Source: Micromonospora sp. NBC_01796 (lineage in GTDB: Bacteria; Actinomycetota; Actinomycetes; Mycobacteriales; Micromonosporaceae). Taken from it: DNA of 64,000 nt. Below are positions 7,539 to 46,458 of this stretch, one piece after another (positions within the stretch are counted from its first letter, which is position 1; each line of letters begins with the position of its first letter). The notes below the pieces were generated by a model that did no database searches, was not told the DNA's origin, and saw only the letters and a program-made list of their open reading frames with translations. The DNA lies in the NCBI RefSeq assembly GCF_035917455.1, contig NZ_CP109078.1, positions 4,154,001-4,218,000 on the forward strand, written 5' to 3'. The position numbers and the translations under genes are program-made.

Positions 7539-7994
7539 GTGCTGGTTCTGGAGTGGATCGGGGTCGGCGCGCTGGTCGTGCTCGCCGGCCTGCTCGTGCT
7601 CTTCGTCCGGCGTGCCCTGGTGACCCGCTCGGGCGGGATCATCCGGCTCAGCGTACGGGTGTCGACGATGCTCGACGGCCGGGGCTGGTCGCCAGGATTC
7701 GGGCGCTTCACCGACGACGAACTGCGCTGGTACCGGATGTTCAGTTTTGCCATCCGGCCCAAGCGGGTGCTCGCCCGTCGGGGGCTCGCCGTCGAACGTC
7801 GCCGGTTGCCCGAGGGCCAGGAACAGTTCTCCATGCCGGCCGACTGGGTGATCCTGCGCTGTACCAGTCACCAGGCGCCGGTGGAGATCGCGATGGCGCA
7901 ATCCACGGTGACCGGGTTTCTTTCGTGGCTCGAGGCCGCTCCTCCGGGGGCGGTCTCGCCGCGTCTGGGGGCTCATGATTGGCCTGCTGCTTGA
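7539..7994 (+). CDS. DUF2550 family membrane protein
   Basis: A 151-residue protein with one N-terminal transmembrane helix (about residues 5-26) and a basic cytoplasmic domain with the pattern W..G..RF..DELRWYR.FS....P. This matches the actinobacterial DUF2550 family, which is usually encoded next to atpC. Function is unknown. It begins 12 bases after atpC with a GTG start and is probably cotranscribed. A large hairpin follows its stop codon. Confidence 0.8.
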   Translation: MLVLEWIGVGALVVLAGLLVLFVRRALVTRSGGIIRLSVRVSTMLDGRGWSPGFGRFTDDELRWYRMFSFAIRPKRVLARRGLAVERRRLPEGQEQFSMPADWVILRCTSHQAPVEIAMAQSTVTGFLSWLEAAPPGAVSPRLGAHDWPAA

Positions 7995-8008: not shown

Positions 8009-8080
8009 GGGTTGGGCCTGCCGTGCCCGGCTCCGAGCGGTCAGGCTTGATCTCTCCGCCGGGCACGGCAGGCCCAACCC
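8009..8080. repeat. Large conserved-core hairpin, copy 1
   Basis: A perfect 23-bp inverted repeat (8009-8031 with 8058-8080) encloses a 26-base loop (8032-8057). The core 8021-8068 is identical to 14893-14940. The outer 12 bp of stem differ from copy 2 at five positions, and every difference is compensated on the other arm. It lies between convergent genes (DUF2550 and a methyltransferase), so a bidirectional terminator is likely, although no T-run follows. Confidence 0.85.
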
Positions 8081-8160
8081 GAAACCTTTGTTCGTCAGCG
8101 CCCGGTCCCGATGGGGACCGGGCGTTTGTGGTCTGGGGGCAGGGGTGATCGGCGGACGGG

Positions 8161-8811
8161 TCAGGTGGTGGTGTTGCCGGTGTTGGTAGCGGCGAGGCCG
8201 GAGTGGGGGCGGGTGGTTCGGATGGGGCGGCGGCAGTGGTAGACGAGGGCGGGGGGCAGGTTCGCCCAGACCGTACGGCCCATGGTGACCTCTTCGAACC
8301 GGGACCGGAGGGCGGTGCGGAGTCGCTGTGCCGGCGGGGTCCAGATCGCGAACAGGTAGGCGAACGTGGTGAACGCGCCGTCGTCGGCGAGCCCGTCGGC
8401 GACCGCGTCGAGCAGGTTCTGCTGCAGGTCGTTGTTGAAGGCGGCCCAGGGCAGGCCGCTCACGATCACGTCCGCCTGCCGGTGGCCCCGTGCGGCCAGC
8501 AGGTCACGGAGTTTGCGGGCGTCGTCCGAGATGACGTCCACCGCCGGGTAGCGCCGACTCAGGGCACCGGCGAAGTCGGGGTTGATCTCGATGGCGAGCT
8601 GGTGGCCGCGCCCGCCGAGCCGGCGCTGGATCTCGCCGGTGAAGGAGCCGGTACCCGGTCCGAGTTCGACCACCACCGGATCGCCCGTACGCGGAACCGG
8701 TGCGGTGATCTTGTCTGCCAGTGCCCGTGAGCTGGGCGCGATCGCACCGACCGCCATCGGCTGGCGGACAAACTGGGTCAGGAACGTTAATTTCTCATTG
8801 GCCACGGCCAC
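8161..8811 (-). CDS. Class I SAM-dependent methyltransferase (phospholipid methyltransferase-like)
   Basis: About 216 residues. The SAM-binding motif VVELGPGTGSFTGEIQRR is followed by an acidic residue in AIEINPDF. The N-terminal FLTQFVRQPMAVGAIAPSSRALA and the ISGLPWAAF-type segment match proteins annotated as phospholipid N-methyltransferase or rRNA-dimethylase-like. The substrate cannot be fixed from sequence. The start is uncertain: GTG at 8811 or at 8805, just upstream of NEKLTF. Its 5' end faces the divergent histidine kinase gene. Confidence 0.7.
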   Translation of the reverse strand: MAVANEKLTFLTQFVRQPMAVGAIAPSSRALADKITAPVPRTGDPVVVELGPGTGSFTGEIQRRLGGRGHQLAIEINPDFAGALSRRYPAVDVISDDARKLRDLLAARGHRQADVIVSGLPWAAFNNDLQQNLLDAVADGLADDGAFTTFAYLFAIWTPPAQRLRTALRSRFEEVTMGRTVWANLPPALVYHCRRPIRTTRPHSGLAATNTGNTTT

Positions 8812-8932
8812 CAAAATAGGCGATGACCGTCCGTACCCGGTCGTCCGGATGGTCGGAACTTCGGCCACCCGGAGGAGGCGGACCGGCCGGTGGCCGGACC
8901 GGCTGCCCACACCCGCTACGTATCGTTGGCGG

Positions 8933-10120
8933 GTGCGAACGGGGCGGTGGCGGTGGGGTCCGGATCTGTTGCTCGGGCTGGTCGGGCTCGCGCTGGTCGC
9001 GGCCAACGGCCTGCTCGGCTGGGCGGAGATCCAGGACAACCCGGTCGTCGCCGGCCTGGCCACCGCGACCGGGCTCGCCCTGTTCGGGGCGCGACGGTGG
9101 CCGTGGCCGACGATGGCGGTCGAGGCGACCCTGCTGGTGGTCGCCGACGCCGTCGCCCCGCCGAACAGCGTCATCACCCAACTGGGGCTGGCGGTCGCGT
9201 TGGCCGTGGTCGGCTACCGCTCGCGCTGGTTGGGCACCACCGCGGCGTTCCTGCTGGCCCTCGTCGCGACCCTGATCGACGTGGTCGACCCGGGCGGGGA
9301 GCCGCTGGGGCTCACCGACAAGGAGGCGACGGTACGGGTGCTCGCCATCGCGGCACTGGTCGGCGCGCCGATCGTGTTCGGCCGGTACCTGCGCCGGCAG
9401 CGGGATGCCACCCTGGTCGCCGAGGAACGTGTCTGGGAGGCGGAGACCCGGCAGGCGGCGGAGAACCGGGCGGCCCGGCTGGCGGAGCGCACCAGTATTG
9501 CCCGGGACCTGCACGACATCGTCGCCCACCATGTCAGCGCCATCGCGTTGCAGGCCGGTGCCGCCCAGTTCGCCGCCCGGCACACCGGCCGGGTGGACGA
9601 CGCCGTGGTGGCCCTCGGCGAGGTGCGCGGTACGGCCGGTCGGGTGCTCGACGAGCTGCGCGAGCTGCTGGAGGTCTTGCGCGACCCGGAGGCGGTCGAG
9701 GCGACCACGGTGCTGGTCGAGCCGGAGCAGATCTTCCGGGACGCGGTCCGCCAGGTCGAGGCCGGTGGGTTGGAGGTTCGGCTGGCGGGTGCCGAACTGG
9801 TGGCCGGGGCGCCGCTGGTGGTGCGTACGACCGCTGCCCGGGTGATCCAGGAGGGGCTGACCAACGCGCTCAAACACGCCGGACCCGGCAGCTCGGTGTC
9901 CGTACGGCTGTGTCGGGAGGACCGTGGCCTGCTGGTCGAGGTGCTCGACAGCGGGTCGGTACGGGCCGACCCGGTCCGTACGGCGCTGCCGCCGTCGGGG
10001 CACGGCCTGGCCGGCATGCGGGAGCGGGTCGGGCTGCTCGGGGGTAGGTTGGCCGCCGGTCCCGCCGCCGACGGCGGTTGGCGGTTGACGGCCCACCTAC
10101 CGGTGAAGGAGACCCCATGA
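8933..10120 (+). CDS. Two-component sensor histidine kinase (HisKA_3/NarL type)
   Basis: About 395 residues. The N-terminal part (residues 8-145) holds four to five hydrophobic helices with no obvious extracytoplasmic sensor domain. A linker helix follows, then the dimerisation/phosphoacceptor region ARDLHDIVAHHVSAIALQAG with the His near residue 194. The ATPase domain has NALKHAG and GHGLAGMRERV. The GTG start is preceded by TATCGT with a 6-base spacer, which fits a leaderless transcript. It ends 22 bases before its response regulator. The signal sensed is unknown. Confidence 0.88.
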   Translation: MRTGRWRWGPDLLLGLVGLALVAANGLLGWAEIQDNPVVAGLATATGLALFGARRWPWPTMAVEATLLVVADAVAPPNSVITQLGLAVALAVVGYRSRWLGTTAAFLLALVATLIDVVDPGGEPLGLTDKEATVRVLAIAALVGAPIVFGRYLRRQRDATLVAEERVWEAETRQAAENRAARLAERTSIARDLHDIVAHHVSAIALQAGAAQFAARHTGRVDDAVVALGEVRGTAGRVLDELRELLEVLRDPEAVEATTVLVEPEQIFRDAVRQVEAGGLEVRLAGAELVAGAPLVVRTTAARVIQEGLTNALKHAGPGSSVSVRLCREDRGLLVEVLDSGSVRADPVRTALPPSGHGLAGMRERVGLLGGRLAAGPAADGGWRLTAHLPVKETP

Positions 10121-10142
10121 TCCGCCCGGTCGAGGAGACCCG

Positions 10143-10862
10143 ATGATCCGCGTACTCGTCGTGGACGACCAGGCGCTGGTCCGCGCCGGCGTCGCCCTGC
10201 TGCTGCGTACGGCCGGGGGTTTCGACATCGTCGGGGAGGCGGCCGACGGATCGGAGGCGGTACGCCTGGCCCAACGGCTGCACCCGGACGTGGTGCTGAT
10301 GGATCTGCGGATGCCGAGGATGGACGGGATCGAGGCGACCCGGCGGATCCTCGACCATCACCCGGCCGCCAGGGTGCTGGTGCTGACCACGTTCGCCGAC
10401 GACGCCAACATCTACGGCGCCCTGGGTGCCGGTGCGATCGGTTACCTGGTCAAGGACGGCGAGCCGGAGGCGCTGATCGAAGCGGTCCGGCGGGCGGCCA
10501 ACGGGGAGTCGCTGCTGGCCCCGCCGGTGCTGGCCCGCATCGTCGGCCGGGCGCTGTCCGCGCACCGCGAGGACGCCCAGCGGGACGCCGAGCAGGTCTC
10601 CGTCGGGCAGCGGCGCCTGCTCACCGACCGGGAGCGGCAGGTGCTGGCCCTGGTCGGGGTCGGGCTGTCGAACGCGGAGATCGCCGGCCGGTTGCACCTG
10701 GGCGTCACCACGGTCAAGACCCACGTCTCGGCCGCGATGGAGAAGCTGCGGCTGCGCAACCGGGTGCAGGCCGCCGTGGTGGCCCACCGGCTCGGGCTGG
10801 TGGACGACGGGTTCAACCTGGTCGAGGCGGCCGACCCCGACCCGGTGGTCGGCGCCCCCTAG
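10143..10862 (+). CDS. NarL/FixJ-family response regulator
   Basis: A 239-residue DNA-binding partner of the upstream kinase. The receiver domain has the acidic pair Asp8-Asp9, the phosphoacceptor Asp54 (VVLMDLRMP) and the conserved Lys of LVKDGE. The C-terminal LuxR-type HTH reads LTDRERQVLALVGVGLSNAEIA...TTVKTHVSAAMEKL. ATGATCCGC occurs twice around the start (10118 and 10143), so an earlier ATG exists out of frame; the 10143 start, preceded by GAGGAGA, is the coding one. Confidence 0.93.
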   Translation: MIRVLVVDDQALVRAGVALLLRTAGGFDIVGEAADGSEAVRLAQRLHPDVVLMDLRMPRMDGIEATRRILDHHPAARVLVLTTFADDANIYGALGAGAIGYLVKDGEPEALIEAVRRAANGESLLAPPVLARIVGRALSAHREDAQRDAEQVSVGQRRLLTDRERQVLALVGVGLSNAEIAGRLHLGVTTVKTHVSAAMEKLRLRNRVQAAVVAHRLGLVDDGFNLVEAADPDPVVGAP

Positions 10863-10867
10863 GGCTG

Positions 10868-10885
10868 CCTCCGGCCACCCGGAGG
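10868..10885 (+). terminator. Short hairpin after the response regulator
   Basis: CCTCCGG and CCGGAGG form a 7-bp stem with loop CCAC five bases after the stop codon. No T-run follows, so it is at best a weak terminator or an RNA stabiliser. Confidence 0.35.
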
Positions 10886-10943
10886 AGGCCCGGCGGCCGG
10901 CTGGACGACGTGGCGGCGTACCGGTGGGCGTCAGGGTAGCCGG

Positions 10944-11708
10944 GTGGAGATCATCAGCACCTTTGTCGACTGGCTCGCCGGGTTGTCGACCGGCTGGTTG
11001 TACCTGACCGCGGCGGTCGTACTGGCCGCGGAGGTGGCGGTGCTGCCGGGGATGGTCCTGCCGGCGGCCACCACGATGCTCACCGTCGGTTTCCTGGCCC
11101 GGGCCGGTGACCTGGACCCGGCCACCGCCCTCGTGGTGACCAGCCTGGCGGCGATGCTCGGCGACCACCTCGGCTTCCTGGAGGGGCGGCTGGTGGGGCC
11201 CCGGCTGCGGCGGGGTCGGTTCGGCCGCCGGATCGACGCCGGGCGGTGGGAGCGGGCGGAGCGCCTGCTGACCGCCGGGGGCGGCCCCGCGATCGTGCTC
11301 GGCCGGTGGACGCCGTACGTCCGGACCCTGGTGCCCCGGATGGCGGCGGTGGCCGGGCTGCCGTACCGGCGGTTCGCGGTGTACGACGCCGCCGCGGTGC
11401 TGGTCTGGGTGCCCGGCATCTTCCTGATCGGCTACCTCGCCGGGGCCTCGTACCTGCGGATGGGCGGACTGATCGGCACGGTCGTGGTGATCGTGGCGGC
11501 CGTGGCCGGGCTGGTCACCGCCGGCGTGTGGGCCCACCGCCGTCGGGGTCGGGGCCCCGCCGGCCGTGACCGGGAGTCCGCCACAGGATGCCGGGGACGG
11601 GTACGGCGTGCCCGGTCGCCACTGCGGCGGTCCGGCCCGGACCAGGGGCGGCGTACCCGCCCGGACACCCGTACGGCTCGGCCGGAGCGGGACCCGTCCC
11701 GGTGGTGA
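10944..11708 (+). CDS. DedA/SNARE-associated family membrane protein
   Basis: A 254-residue membrane protein. The DedA pattern is visible as EVAVLPGMVLPAATTM near the N-terminus, AAMLGDHLGFLEGR, then GGGPAIVLGRWTPYVRTLVPRMAAVAGLPYRRF, where the Gly-Arg-x3-Arg core is typical, and two or three C-terminal hydrophobic helices. The last 60 residues are a basic, probably disordered tail. DedA proteins include lipid scramblases/flippases that affect envelope homeostasis. The GTG start at 10944 precedes MEIISTFVDWL. Confidence 0.82.
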   Translation: MEIISTFVDWLAGLSTGWLYLTAAVVLAAEVAVLPGMVLPAATTMLTVGFLARAGDLDPATALVVTSLAAMLGDHLGFLEGRLVGPRLRRGRFGRRIDAGRWERAERLLTAGGGPAIVLGRWTPYVRTLVPRMAAVAGLPYRRFAVYDAAAVLVWVPGIFLIGYLAGASYLRMGGLIGTVVVIVAAVAGLVTAGVWAHRRRGRGPAGRDRESATGCRGRVRRARSPLRRSGPDQGRRTRPDTRTARPERDPSRW

Positions 11709-11725
11709 TCAGCGTTCGCCCGGCG

Positions 11726-12298
11726 TCACTTCCGGCCGCCGGGGACCCATAGCACATCCCCGTCGGGATTGGCCGTTCTTGCCAGGATGAAGAGCAGATC
11801 GGATAGCCGGTTGAGATACTTTGCCGGAAGGATGCTGGTTCGTTCCTGATCGTGGTTCACCAGTGCCCAGGCCGCTCGTTCGGCGCGCCGGGCCACCGTG
11901 CGTGCGACGTGCAACAGAGCCGCTCCCGCGGTGCCGCCGGGCAGGATGAAGGAGTCGAGCTTGCCCAGTTCCGCGTTGTACTCGTCGCACCAGGTCTCGA
12001 GCCTGGTCACGTACTCCTCGGTCACCCGCAGCGGCGGATACGCCGGATCCGGCTCGACCGGGGTGGCCAGGTCGGCGCCGACGTCGAAGAGGTCGTTCTG
12101 GATCGCGGCCAGCACCGTACGCAGACCGTCGTCGAGTTGGCCGAGCGCGAGGGCCACCCCGATCGCCGCGTTGCACTCGTCCACGTCCGCGTACGCGGCG
12201 ATCCGCGGATCGGTCTTCTCGACCAGTTCGTTGTTGCTCAGCCTGGTCTGGCCGGCGTCGCCGGTCCTGGTGTAGATGCGGGTGAGGTGAACGGCCAT
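11726..12298 (-). CDS. Cob(I)yrinic acid a,c-diamide adenosyltransferase (PduO type)
   Basis: A 190-residue ATP:corrinoid adenosyltransferase that converts cob(I)alamin to adenosylcobalamin. Family signatures are the N-terminal [11 protein letters not shown] (ATP phosphate binding), [14 protein letters not shown], the [15 protein letters not shown] helix with the RRAER motif, and [12 protein letters not shown]. The ATG at 12298 has TACGCT 7 bases upstream on the minus strand, suggesting a leaderless transcript. It diverges from murA. Confidence 0.93.
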
Positions 12299-12443
12299 GA
12301 CGGACAGCGTACGGAGGTCCGACGGCGAGCCGCCCACCCAGACGGTGACCGGTGACGGAACCGACCCGACCGGCGGGCTGCCGGGTGACTGGCCGGCGTC
12401 CGGGGTGACCGCGGAGGTGGCTGCCGACCCTACGATTGCCGAC
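12299..12443. promoter_or_regulatory. Divergent promoter region with two leaderless-type -10 boxes
   Basis: TACGCT (minus strand, 12306-12311) lies 7 bases from the adenosyltransferase ATG, and TACGAT (plus strand, 12431-12436) lies 7 bases from the murA GTG at 12444. Both fit the actinobacterial TANNNT leaderless pattern. An open frame continues from 12297 into murA, but its codons before 12444 encode a low-complexity segment not typical of MurA, so I treat the interval as regulatory. Confidence 0.5.
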
Positions 12444-13898
12444 GTGGACGTGATCAGGGTCAGCGGTGGCGCCCGGCTCGCCGGTGAGGTGCACGTCGTG
12501 GGCGCGAAGAACTCCGCGCTGAAGCTGATGGCGGTGGCCCTGCTGGCGCCCGGCCGCAGTGTGATCACCAACGTCCCCCGGATCACCGACATCGCGATCA
12601 TGGGCGAGGTGCTGCGCCGGCTCGGTTGCGAGGTCTCGTTTGGCGAGGACAACGGCACCTCGACCGGGACCATCGAGGGCATCCCGGTGGTCGGGGTGGC
12701 CGACGGCGTATCGGTGGAGGTGCCGCCGGTCGACGGCGCCGGACCGGTCCGCGACGTCGCCTCGACGGCCAGCGGCGAGGCCCAGGCGGCGGTCGACCTC
12801 GGTGCGCTGCCCGGCCGGGCCCGGACGGTGACCATCGACGTGCCCGCCGAACCGGGCACCGACGCCGACTACGACCTGGTACGCCGGCTGCGTGCGTCGA
12901 TCTGCGTCCTCGGCCCGTTGCTGGCCCGGCGCGGTTACGTCCGGGTGGCCCATCCCGGTGGTGACGCGATCGGCTCCCGGGGCCTGGACATGCACGTGTC
13001 GGGCCTGGCCCGGATGGGTGCGGAGATCTCCGGCTCGCACGGCTTCGTGATCGCCTCGGCCCCGAACGGGCTGCGCGGCGCGACAATCTGGCTGGACTTC
13101 CCCAGCGTCGGCGCGACCGAGAACCTGGTCATGGCGGCGGTGCTGGCCAAGGGGATCACGGAGATCGACAACGCGGCCCGCGAACCGGAGATCGTCGACA
13201 TCTGCACCATGCTCTCGGCGATGGGAGCCAAGATCGAGGGAGCCGGCACCTCGACCATCCGGATCGAGGGCGTCAGCGAGTTACGCCCGGTGCAACACCG
13301 TACGGTCGGCGACCGGATCGTCGCCGGCACCTGGGCCTTCGCGGCGGCCATGACCCAGGGGGACGTGACCGTGACGGGTGCGAGCCCGAGCTTCCTGGAG
13401 ATCGCCTTGGACAAGGTGATCTCCGCCGGCGGCCTGGTCGAGACCCGGACCGACGCCTTCCGGGTACGGATGGACCGACGCCCGACCGCCGTCGACGTGG
13501 TCACCCTGCCGTTCCCAGGCTTCGCCACCGACCTGCTGCCGATGGCGATCGGGATGGCCTCGGTCAGCGAGGGCGCCTCGCTGATCACGGAGAACATCTT
13601 CGACGGCCGGTTCATGTTCGTGAACGAGATGGCCCGGCTCGGCGCCGACATCAAGACCGACGGGCACCACGCCGTGGTCAGGGGCCGGGAGCGCCTCTCC
13701 AGCGCCCCGGTCCGGGCCACCGACATCCGGGCCGGCGCCGGCCTGGTGATCGCCGGCCTCTGCGCGGACGGGGTGACCGAGATATCGCACGTGCACCACG
13801 TCGACCGGGGGTACCCGGACTTCGTCGCGGACCTGCGTGCCCTCGGCGTCGAGGTCGAACGCACCACCGCACCCGCCGAGCAGAACTTCTCCCTCTGA
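12444..13898 (+). CDS. murA: UDP-N-acetylglucosamine 1-carboxyvinyltransferase (Asp-type MurA)
   Basis: First committed enzyme of peptidoglycan synthesis; it transfers enolpyruvate from PEP to UDP-GlcNAc. Family blocks: [36 protein letters not shown], the active-site loop PGGDAIGSR and [10 protein letters not shown]-type C-terminal residues. The catalytic Cys of most MurA enzymes is Asp (about residue 174), the substitution known to give mycobacteria intrinsic fosfomycin resistance. The protein (484 residues) is long. An extra Gly/Val/Pro-rich stretch at about residues 66-125 lies between the substrate-binding start and [13 protein letters not shown] and pushes the active-site loop about 55 residues later than usual. 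An upstream ATG at 12297 is possible but less likely. Confidence 0.9.
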
Positions 13899-14016
13899 CC
13901 CCTGCTCCACCCTCGCTGCCGTCCCCGCCTGCTGCTCGTCCGCGTCGCCTGAGGTGTCGTTCAGGTCGACGGATAGAGTGCGGTGGAGACAGGCGTACCA
14001 GGGGAGGAGCAGGCGG

Positions 14017-14865
14017 ATGGCGGGTCGACTCGCGGTCATCGGGGCCGGACTGATGGGTTCGGGCATCGCACAGGTGGCGGCGCTGGCAGGTTGGCAGGTG
14101 ACGCTCCGCGACCTGGACGACGCGGCGACCCAACGCGGCCTGGACGGCATCCGTACCTCGCTGGACAGGTTCGCCGCCAAGGGCAAGATCGAAGCCGGTG
14201 AGGTGGAGAGCACCCTGGCCCGGATCACCCCGACCACCGACCTGGAGGCGGCGGCCGACGCCGACCTGGTGGTCGAGGCGGTGTTCGAGCGGCTGGAACT
14301 CAAGCAGGAGGTGTTCCGCGAACTGGACCGGATCTGCCGGCCGGACGCGGTCCTCGCGACCAACACCTCGGCGATCCCGGTCACCCAGATCGCGGCGGTG
14401 ACGAAGCGGCCGGAGTCGGTCGTCGGCACCCACTTCTTCTCGCCGGTGCCGATGATGCAGCTCTGCGAGCTGGTACGCGGCTACAAGACCAGCGACGAGA
14501 CGCTCGCCACCGCCCGCGCCTTCGCCGAGGAGATCGGCAAGACCTGCGTGGTGGTGAACCGGGACATCGCCGGCTTCGTCACCACCCGACTGATCACCGC
14601 CCTGGTCATGGAGGCGGTCAAGCTCGTCGAGTCCGGCGTCGTCTCCGCCGAGGACCTCGACGTCGCCTGCAAGCTCGGCTTCGGCCACGCCATGGGCCCG
14701 CTCGCCACCACCGACCTGACGGGCGCGGACGTGCTCCTGCACGCCACCAAGAACATCTACACCGACACCGGCGACGAGAAGTTCTTCCCGCCCGAACTCC
14801 TCCAGCGCATGGTCACCGCCGGAGACCTGGGCCGCAAAACCGGCAAGGGCTTCTACTCGTACTGA
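14017..14865 (+). CDS. 3-hydroxybutyryl-CoA/3-hydroxyacyl-CoA dehydrogenase
   Basis: A 282-residue NAD-dependent dehydrogenase. The Rossmann start is VIGAGLMGSGIAQVAALAG. The catalytic His lies in GTHFFSPVPMMQLCELV, and the C-terminal domain has CKLGFGHAMGPLATTDLTG and GRKTGKGFYSY. The helix after AGF reads VTTRL, where many homologs have Asn. It acts in short-chain fatty acid or polyhydroxybutyrate metabolism, oxidising 3-hydroxyacyl-CoA. A GGGGAGGAG site 8 bases upstream fixes the ATG. The stop is followed by the second conserved-core hairpin. Confidence 0.92.
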   Translation: MAGRLAVIGAGLMGSGIAQVAALAGWQVTLRDLDDAATQRGLDGIRTSLDRFAAKGKIEAGEVESTLARITPTTDLEAAADADLVVEAVFERLELKQEVFRELDRICRPDAVLATNTSAIPVTQIAAVTKRPESVVGTHFFSPVPMMQLCELVRGYKTSDETLATARAFAEEIGKTCVVVNRDIAGFVTTRLITALVMEAVKLVESGVVSAEDLDVACKLGFGHAMGPLATTDLTGADVLLHATKNIYTDTGDEKFFPPELLQRMVTAGDLGRKTGKGFYSY

Positions 14866-14880
14866 CGGGCTCGTCGTGGG

Positions 14881-14952
14881 GGCTGTGGCCCTCCGTGCCC
14901 GGCTCCGAGCGGTCAGGCTTGATCTCTCCGCCGGGCACGGAGGGCCACAGCC
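14881..14952. repeat. Large conserved-core hairpin, copy 2
   Basis: A perfect 23-bp inverted repeat (14881-14903 with 14930-14952) encloses a 26-base loop identical to copy 1. The 48-base core (14893-14940) matches 8021-8068 in the same orientation. The outer stem differs from copy 1 at five positions, all compensated. Again it sits between convergent genes (3-hydroxyacyl-CoA dehydrogenase and an ABC permease). Confidence 0.85.
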
Positions 14953-20245: not shown

Positions 20246-20312
20246 CGCGTCGATCATGAAGTTAGCGACAGAGAATCGACCGGGATCTGTCGCTAACTTC
20301 ATGATCAACGCG
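20246..20312. repeat. 27-bp intergenic inverted repeat
   Basis: Arms 20246-20272 and 20286-20312 match at 26 of 27 positions around a 13-base spacer. The arm core ATCATGAAGTTAGCGACA is A+T-richer than the surroundings. It sits just upstream of the broken DUF5753 locus and downstream of a methyltransferase gene on the minus strand. It may be a dispersed repetitive palindrome or a terminator; it has no T-run. Confidence 0.8.
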
Positions 20313-46396: not shown

Positions 46397-46458
46397 ACCA
46401 CTCTTGTAGAGAATGAGTGGTTTCGCAGCCCCGGATTGCCCCTCTTTCTCTACAAGAG
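46397..46458 (-). repeat. Overlapping alternative hairpins upstream of the HIT gene
   Basis: CTCTTGTAGAGAA (46401-46413) pairs perfectly with 46446-46458 (13 bp, 32-base loop). ACCACTC (46397-46403) can instead pair with GAGTGGT (46415-46421), which excludes part of the long stem. The element lies between the wzx-like stop and the HIT start, both on the minus strand. It could be a terminator, an attenuator or a dispersed repeat. Confidence 0.55.

Follow-up and report, generated by a model that had tools for sequence, protein, structure and literature searches.

Two long hairpins in a 64,000-nt stretch of the Micromonospora sp. NBC_01796 genome (contig NZ_CP109078.1, positions 4,154,001 to 4,218,000; hereafter the window) are, with a probability that we put at about one half, members of a dispersed family of RNA hairpins located in 3' untranslated regions (3' UTRs) and between cistrons, similar in its habits to repetitive extragenic palindromic (REP) elements and carrying an apex that would be recognized by a protein. 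The family has a usual position and orientation with respect to genes, a conserved apex and covarying stems; it is present or absent at orthologous sites in relatives, and it also occurs between rpoB and rpoC. According to the mechanism proposed here, the element would be transcribed together with the gene upstream of it and would act at the RNA level, with the long stem serving as a barrier to 3'-to-5' decay or as a processing signal, and with the apex being bound by an RNA-binding protein. The analogy for the stem comes from REP elements behind enterobacterial genes, which act as such a barrier or as such a signal.

An earlier note on this DNA, made by reading its letters, had described two perfect 23-bp stems with an identical 48-base core and with five outer differences matched on the opposite arm, both hairpins lying in the same orientation between convergent genes. 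All of this was found again, at the same positions (Table 1). The two copies share exactly the same inner 11 bp and 26-nt loop, and the five differences, all compensated, fall within the outer 12 bp. Folding energies are -66.3 kcal/mol for copy 1 and -66.6 kcal/mol for copy 2 (z-scores of -10.5 and -10.7), values that were equaled by 0 of 200 shuffles. The 26 bases that had been taken for a loop are indeed the same in both copies, but they are not open: they are predicted to form an apical helix, GUCA/UGAU, around a GGCU loop, with an asymmetric bulge beneath it.

Size and spread of the family

A search with the 28-nt core, allowing up to 3 mismatches, found 4 places in the 8.56-Mb genome and 0 with the reversed control, so the likeness of the hairpins is not due to chance. 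The sequence GTCASGCTTGATC occurs 18 times in the genome, against 0 control matches; 17 of the 18 occurrences are hairpin tips, and the other lies in a weaker fold and was taken for coding sequence. The covariance-model search that the earlier note had proposed returned additional copies, with conserved loops, both in this genome and in relatives. The model was built on 18 copies, which match it by construction, and 3 further places come from the model alone, giving 21 distinct family places in the genome (41 matches, both strands of the palindromes being counted).

Matches to the model are present in 14 of 61 genomes: this one, 2 congeners, 10 from other genera of the Micromonosporaceae and 1 from a different family within the order. 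When a broader model, R2, was applied with stricter filters to 396 genomes of the phylum, only 2 matched, both from the Micromonosporaceae. The 19-mer GGCGGTCAGGCTTGATCCC was found in at least 120 stretches, 80 of which were taken as loci, with ten named genera among the matches listed; these loci were chosen by one exact 19-mer, and apex variation is invisible in this set. They come mostly from Micromonospora, and also from Actinoplanes, Amorphoplanes, Verrucosispora, Plantactinospora, Catenuloplanes, Hamadaea, Pseudosporangium and Nucisporomicrobium. Outside the Micromonosporaceae, there are, among the matches listed, two loci of Trueperella bonasi and one of an Actinomycetaceae metagenome-assembled genome (MAG). 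The 80 loci contain 85 motif places. All but 5 of these fold below -50 kcal/mol, and 3 of the 5 are the lower-GC hairpins of Trueperella and the MAG. These two Actinomycetaceae genomes have 7 places each according to the R2 model, which was built with one copy from each.

No Rfam family matched the window at the gathering score, and a permissive threshold applied to 4 loci gave 20 matches, all below the gathering score and mostly to microRNA hairpin families. Searches of open-licence PMC papers found no description of the hairpin family, nor any paper for the letters of its apex. The hairpins look like an undescribed class of element.

A variable stem and a conserved apex

The family hairpin is about 72–87 nt long and combines a structured apex with a stem that is nearly perfect in its pairing and almost unconstrained in its sequence. 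The apex consists of three pairs (commonly GGG/CCC), a 2-nt bulge, and then GU[C/G]A-NGCU-U[G/C]AU. There are 23–33 stem pairs to the left of the apex in the 102 measured copies, a set restricted to hairpins with 20 or more pairs on each side and, like all copies used for statistics, to those folding below -45 kcal/mol.

In 32 diverse copies from many genera, whose majority tip sequence is GGGCGGTCAGGCTTGATCCC, 90.4% of the cells are paired and two-sided change occurs at 25 of 30 pairs. Covariation reaches 0.559, against 0.156 after shuffling and at most 0.235 after sliding, controls that are limited by the relatedness of the sequences. A G.U pair stands at the base of the apical helix in 31 of these 32 aligned copies, a set (A2) selected with an apex filter, in which the constancy of the apex is not independent. 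At 4 of 14 Actinomycetaceae places, the apical C-G pair is replaced by G-C, with pairing kept.

Orthologous copies allow the two parts of the hairpin to be compared. All 11 places listed by the model search for one congener (G001) are orthologous to places in the genome of NBC_01796 (G000). At these 11 sites, a set that excludes sites with a decayed apex, 5 of 143 apex positions differ, every one at the first loop base. Among 328 orthologous stem pairs from the same two genomes, 284 are unchanged, 8 have changed on both sides and 6 on one side with pairing intact, 27 have lost their pairing through a change on one side, and 3 contain insertions or deletions. In 184 hairpins, internal stem pairs comprise 3,440 Watson-Crick and 63 G.U pairs, along with 53 single A.C mismatches. 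Given the 27 broken one-sided changes and a G.U pair barely commoner than A.C, correction of one arm by the other at the DNA level could yield much of the stem pairing, and arm pairing may be maintained partly in this way. Judged from these sequences, the apex is tightly held, and the evidence for selection is stronger in the folded apex and its covariation than in the stems. The earlier note had concluded from the stems that the structure is under selection; this was over-stated on that ground, there being 27 one-sided broken changes and 8 two-sided paired ones, and it is better supported by the apex.

Individual loci illustrate further changes in the stem. L042 and L104 are orthologous hairpins whose inner stems differ completely, and the orthologous hairpins L044 and L105 differ by a matched one-base insertion in both arms. 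At L007, L038, L049 and L063, part of the 5' arm is repeated in tandem next to the hairpin, as might result from slippage (seen by eye).

An alternative explanation is an element acting at the DNA level, that is, a cruciform or single-strand hairpin behind transcribed genes that would be bound by a topoisomerase, a nuclease or a chromosome protein and whose arms would be kept alike by template switching. Stem deviations that are nearly symmetric between strands, arms that are near-perfect in Watson-Crick pairing, and partial left-arm duplications beside some copies, which hairpin slippage could leave, are consistent with this explanation. The strong orientation of the copies with the gene speaks against it, as does an apical helix whose basal pair is G.U and not Watson-Crick, and it is the most doubtful of the explanations weighed here. 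This G.U pair is more readily accounted for by recognition of RNA than by a DNA cruciform.

Position behind genes and occurrence in relatives

Gene strands were taken from a codon-usage caller trained on the window, and from the longest open reading frames (ORFs) only for the Actinomycetaceae loci. Of 188 copies taken, 142 were classified as lying between called genes, which agrees with the dispersed, mainly intergenic distribution of REP-type elements: 76 are convergent, 50 codirectional sense, 11 codirectional antisense and 5 divergent. The 46 copies dropped comprise 23 that lack a gene to one side, 14 that fall within a called ORF and 9 that are too far away. Codirectional gene pairs thus have 50 sense against 11 antisense copies (p = 4.6e-7), and of the 76 copies between convergent genes, 66 lie closer to the stop of the gene that they read with (p = 3e-11); these sign tests include orthologous copies, which are not independent. 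The median distance from the stop codon to the 36-nt left arm is 13 nt (126 copies). Of the 21 upstream genes of this genome, 20 were compared with Pfam. One of these 20 has no match, and the others include adenylate kinase, GcpE, a class-I aminoacyl-tRNA synthetase, ThiC, biotin carboxylase, a SpoU methylase and a sugar transferase. In G037, the element stands behind a ClpB-like gene. One inverted pair of hairpins, 686 bp apart, is present in this genome, where inverted pairs are not the rule. L036 and L037, an inverted pair, enclose a 507-bp gene, which was rejected as a transposase, having no Pfam match at 1e-8.

A strong GC-rich hairpin a few nucleotides past a stop codon is also what an intrinsic (Rho-independent) transcription terminator looks like, and the family could consist of terminators with a shared loop. 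The 76 of 142 classified copies that lie between convergent genes would suit this explanation, as would the short TTT that follows the stem in 5 of this genome's 21 copies, among them copy 2. However, there is no general U-tract: counting from the Watson-Crick stem end, the 8 nt behind the stem contain 1.89 T on average, against 1.67 further on, and at least 4 T in 10 of 102 copies. Together with the ordinary terminator-like hairpins that follow the family hairpin at some sites (by eye) and with the occurrence between rpoB and rpoC, this argues that the hairpins are not simple terminators. A terminator has, moreover, no need for the fixed and structured apex, and the explanation is improbable. 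The earlier note's opinion that the structure is unlike an ordinary terminator is upheld by the U-tract counts, the conserved apex and the rpoB–rpoC copies.

The rpoB–rpoC site deserves closer attention. In G003, G005 and G010, the element lies between the two genes within flanks that are 90–92% identical; the stems are unlike one another, and the apex is kept, G003 and G010 each showing a single substitution in it. A survey matched 116 of 121 genomes of the Micromonosporaceae, and 30 junctions were read (L295–L324), all 30 of which have a hairpin in the spacer, with or without the apex. A long form (spacer length over 100) is found at 12 of them, 11 with the motif and one (G522) with a shortened apex. 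In a tree of the flanks, it is carried by 6/6 genomes in g32, 2/7 in g4, 1/7 in g34 and 0/4 in g7, and, among single genomes, by g2, g9 and g292 and not by g1, g20 and g31. Apex-less hairpins with the foot GGGTTSGGG, a narrow pattern and the only foot searched, occur at one place in the NBC_01796 genome, which is the rpoB–rpoC junction, and this hairpin may have arisen by loss of the apex. As relatives differ here in the presence of the apex, the site constitutes a natural experiment. In G519 (L324), a further small palindrome is nested within the apex.

The sites of the two window copies were also followed in relatives. A DUF2550 orthologue followed by the element within 266 nt was found in 8 Micromonospora and Verrucosispora loci (7 with the exact 13-mer, 1 with a variant), which were chosen for holding the motif and give no frequency. 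Six loci with the copy-2 gene were read, five of them among these eight, and each has other sequence behind that gene. In the second congener, G002 (L268, about 338–1647), the hairpin orthologous to copy 2 is split in its apex by an insertion of about 1.3 kb from the IS110 family of insertion sequences, with DEDD_Tnp_IS110 and Transposase_20 domains on two ORFs.

Presence at some sites and absence at others could reflect a miniature mobile palindrome of the REP, REPIN or MITE (miniature inverted-repeat transposable element) kind. The apex would then be the recognition part of a transposition system, each genome would amplify its own versions, and the position behind genes would result from tolerance or target preference. 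In agreement with this, relatives differ in which sites are occupied, the left arms of one genome resemble each other (mean 0.79) more than those of different genomes do (0.68), most strongly in G032 (0.83) and G029 (0.82), and G032 contains inverted pairs, 9 of which were aligned, with a linker partly common to 7. By contrast, the two values are equal (0.75) for the NBC_01796 genome and its two congeners, many positions are common to congeners and some to genera, and a sense bias is unexpected for the insertion of a symmetric DNA. Absences are imprecise at the three sites and two window sites compared, and none of these five showed a precise empty site or a target duplication. The Y1 transposase domain PF01797, that of the REP-associated tyrosine transposases (RAYTs) of the GTAG type, was found in 9 of 61 genomes and is missing from 13 of the 14 carriers of the hairpin, the other (G010) having two partial matches; a RAYT as the mobilizer is thus unsupported. 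The foot of the stem also lacks a REP tag, and a mobile element is considered unlikely. Between the mobile or protein-bound repeat and the conserved RNA class that the earlier note had offered, the evidence favors an RNA class with REP-like habits, and mobility retains some likelihood.

Several observations weigh against an RNA hairpin with a protein-recognized apex. Copies are dispensable: G001 and G002 both lack copy 1 and have a hairpin similar to the terminator-like one beyond it; copy 2 is absent from G001, where 1 nt separates the two genes; L007 is absent and L035 a remnant in G001; and L010 is absent from G002, which keeps the terminator-like hairpin that follows, G001 giving no match to the region. 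A short apex-less hairpin occupies 18 of the 30 rpoB–rpoC junctions, and the 11 antisense and 5 divergent copies depart from the usual orientation. Within stems, G.U is not clearly preferred over A.C, so that stem pairing carries no strand signal. Finally, besides the apex filter of set A2, the models and patterns themselves reward the apex, and apex-decayed sites, such as L035 in G001, are under-counted.

Within the window, the stem of copy 1 starts 15 nt past the last base of its upstream gene, with the motif on the same strand as that gene, and that of copy 2, in the same orientation, 16 nt past the last base of its own (Table 1). They are faced by a methyltransferase-like gene (-, end 8161) and an ABC permease-like gene (-, end 14999), respectively, putative names that come from reading the translations. 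The terminator-like hairpin beyond copy 1 was not picked up by a strict consensus scan.

Table 1. Window positions of the two hairpins and adjacent features
Feature	Position	Strand	Basis or description
Family hairpin, copy 1	8009..8080	+	Perfect 23-bp stem, 26-nt apical part; model match
Family hairpin, copy 2	14881..14952	+	Perfect 23-bp stem, 26-nt apical part; model match
Conserved apex GTCAGGCTTGATC of copy 1	8040..8052	+	Motif search
Conserved apex GTCAGGCTTGATC of copy 2	14912..14924	+	Motif search
DUF2550 gene, upstream of copy 1	7539..7994	+	PF10739, E 2.8e-44
3-hydroxyacyl-CoA dehydrogenase gene, upstream of copy 2	14017..14865	+	PF02737 and PF00725
Separate 11-bp hairpin then TTTGT, terminator-like, beyond copy 1	8099..8124	+	By eye

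Two other types of palindrome were noticed in the window. The one at 20246–20312 (GATCATGAAGTTAGCGAC...GTCGCTAACTTCATGATC) is long, recurs in this genome at L007 and L049 as well as in G001, has a related form in a Verrucosispora locus, and is perhaps a second dispersed palindrome family. The other, at 46401–46458 (CTCTTGTAGAGAATGAGTGGTT...CTCTTTCTCTACAAGAG), resembles one near L119 or L075 of the same genome.

Comparison with known elements and significance

In the light of these comparisons, we conclude that the family probably works most like a REP-type 3'-UTR or intercistronic hairpin, outside the described REP superfamilies. Like the GTAG and CGTC superfamilies of REPs and bacterial interspersed mosaic elements (BIMEs), it consists of dispersed, mainly intergenic palindromes often located behind genes, it forms inverted pairs in G032 and G029 (14 loci examined), and it has genome-specific subtypes in some genomes. 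An IS110-family insertion has hit the palindrome in one congener, and REPs are targeted by IS110 members according to PMC1525189. Unlike in REPs, the stem has 23–33 pairs of almost free sequence, against the 5–13 bp given for REP stems in PMC3733652, and the fixed part is the tip and not a GTAG or CGTC tag at the foot. Counts of these tags at the foot of the 102 copies (5'/3') are 3/0 for GTAG and 6/7 for CGTC, against 4/1 and 4/10 in one shuffle; those of the reverse complements are 1/0 for CTAC (shuffle 0/4) and 3/9 for GACG (shuffle 3/2). Membership of the described superfamilies was rejected on the basis of the missing tags, of PF01797 missing from 13/14 carriers, and of the fixed tip.

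The attC sites of integrons are imperfect hairpins right behind stop codons, with a fixed orientation, a variable sequence and GTTRRRY/RYYYAAC boxes. The family differs from them in that its conserved part is the tip, and the boxes are present at the foot of 8 of 102 copies. As for the structured RNA classes of Rfam, the family resembles them as a covarying hairpin with a conserved apical motif, but none reaches the gathering score in the window or in the 4 loci searched.

These hairpins call for caution, since the two arms of a long palindrome can change in step without selection on each pair. They also reverse the arrangement of the REP superfamilies: there the fixed tag lies at the foot, whereas here the stem turns over and the folded apex is nearly fixed across genera and in another family. 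Such a small and fixed apex makes a protein partner, or an RNA-level function, testable with a short oligonucleotide. More tentatively, the family may represent an undescribed class of actinobacterial cis-acting RNA, with a portable tip that a dedicated nuclease or RNA-binding protein would read, that would define a genome-wide 3'-end regulon, and that would also accept insertion elements. If so, Micromonospora and its relatives would have mounted one tip on stems that evolve freely, both downstream of many genes and at the rpoB–rpoC junction.

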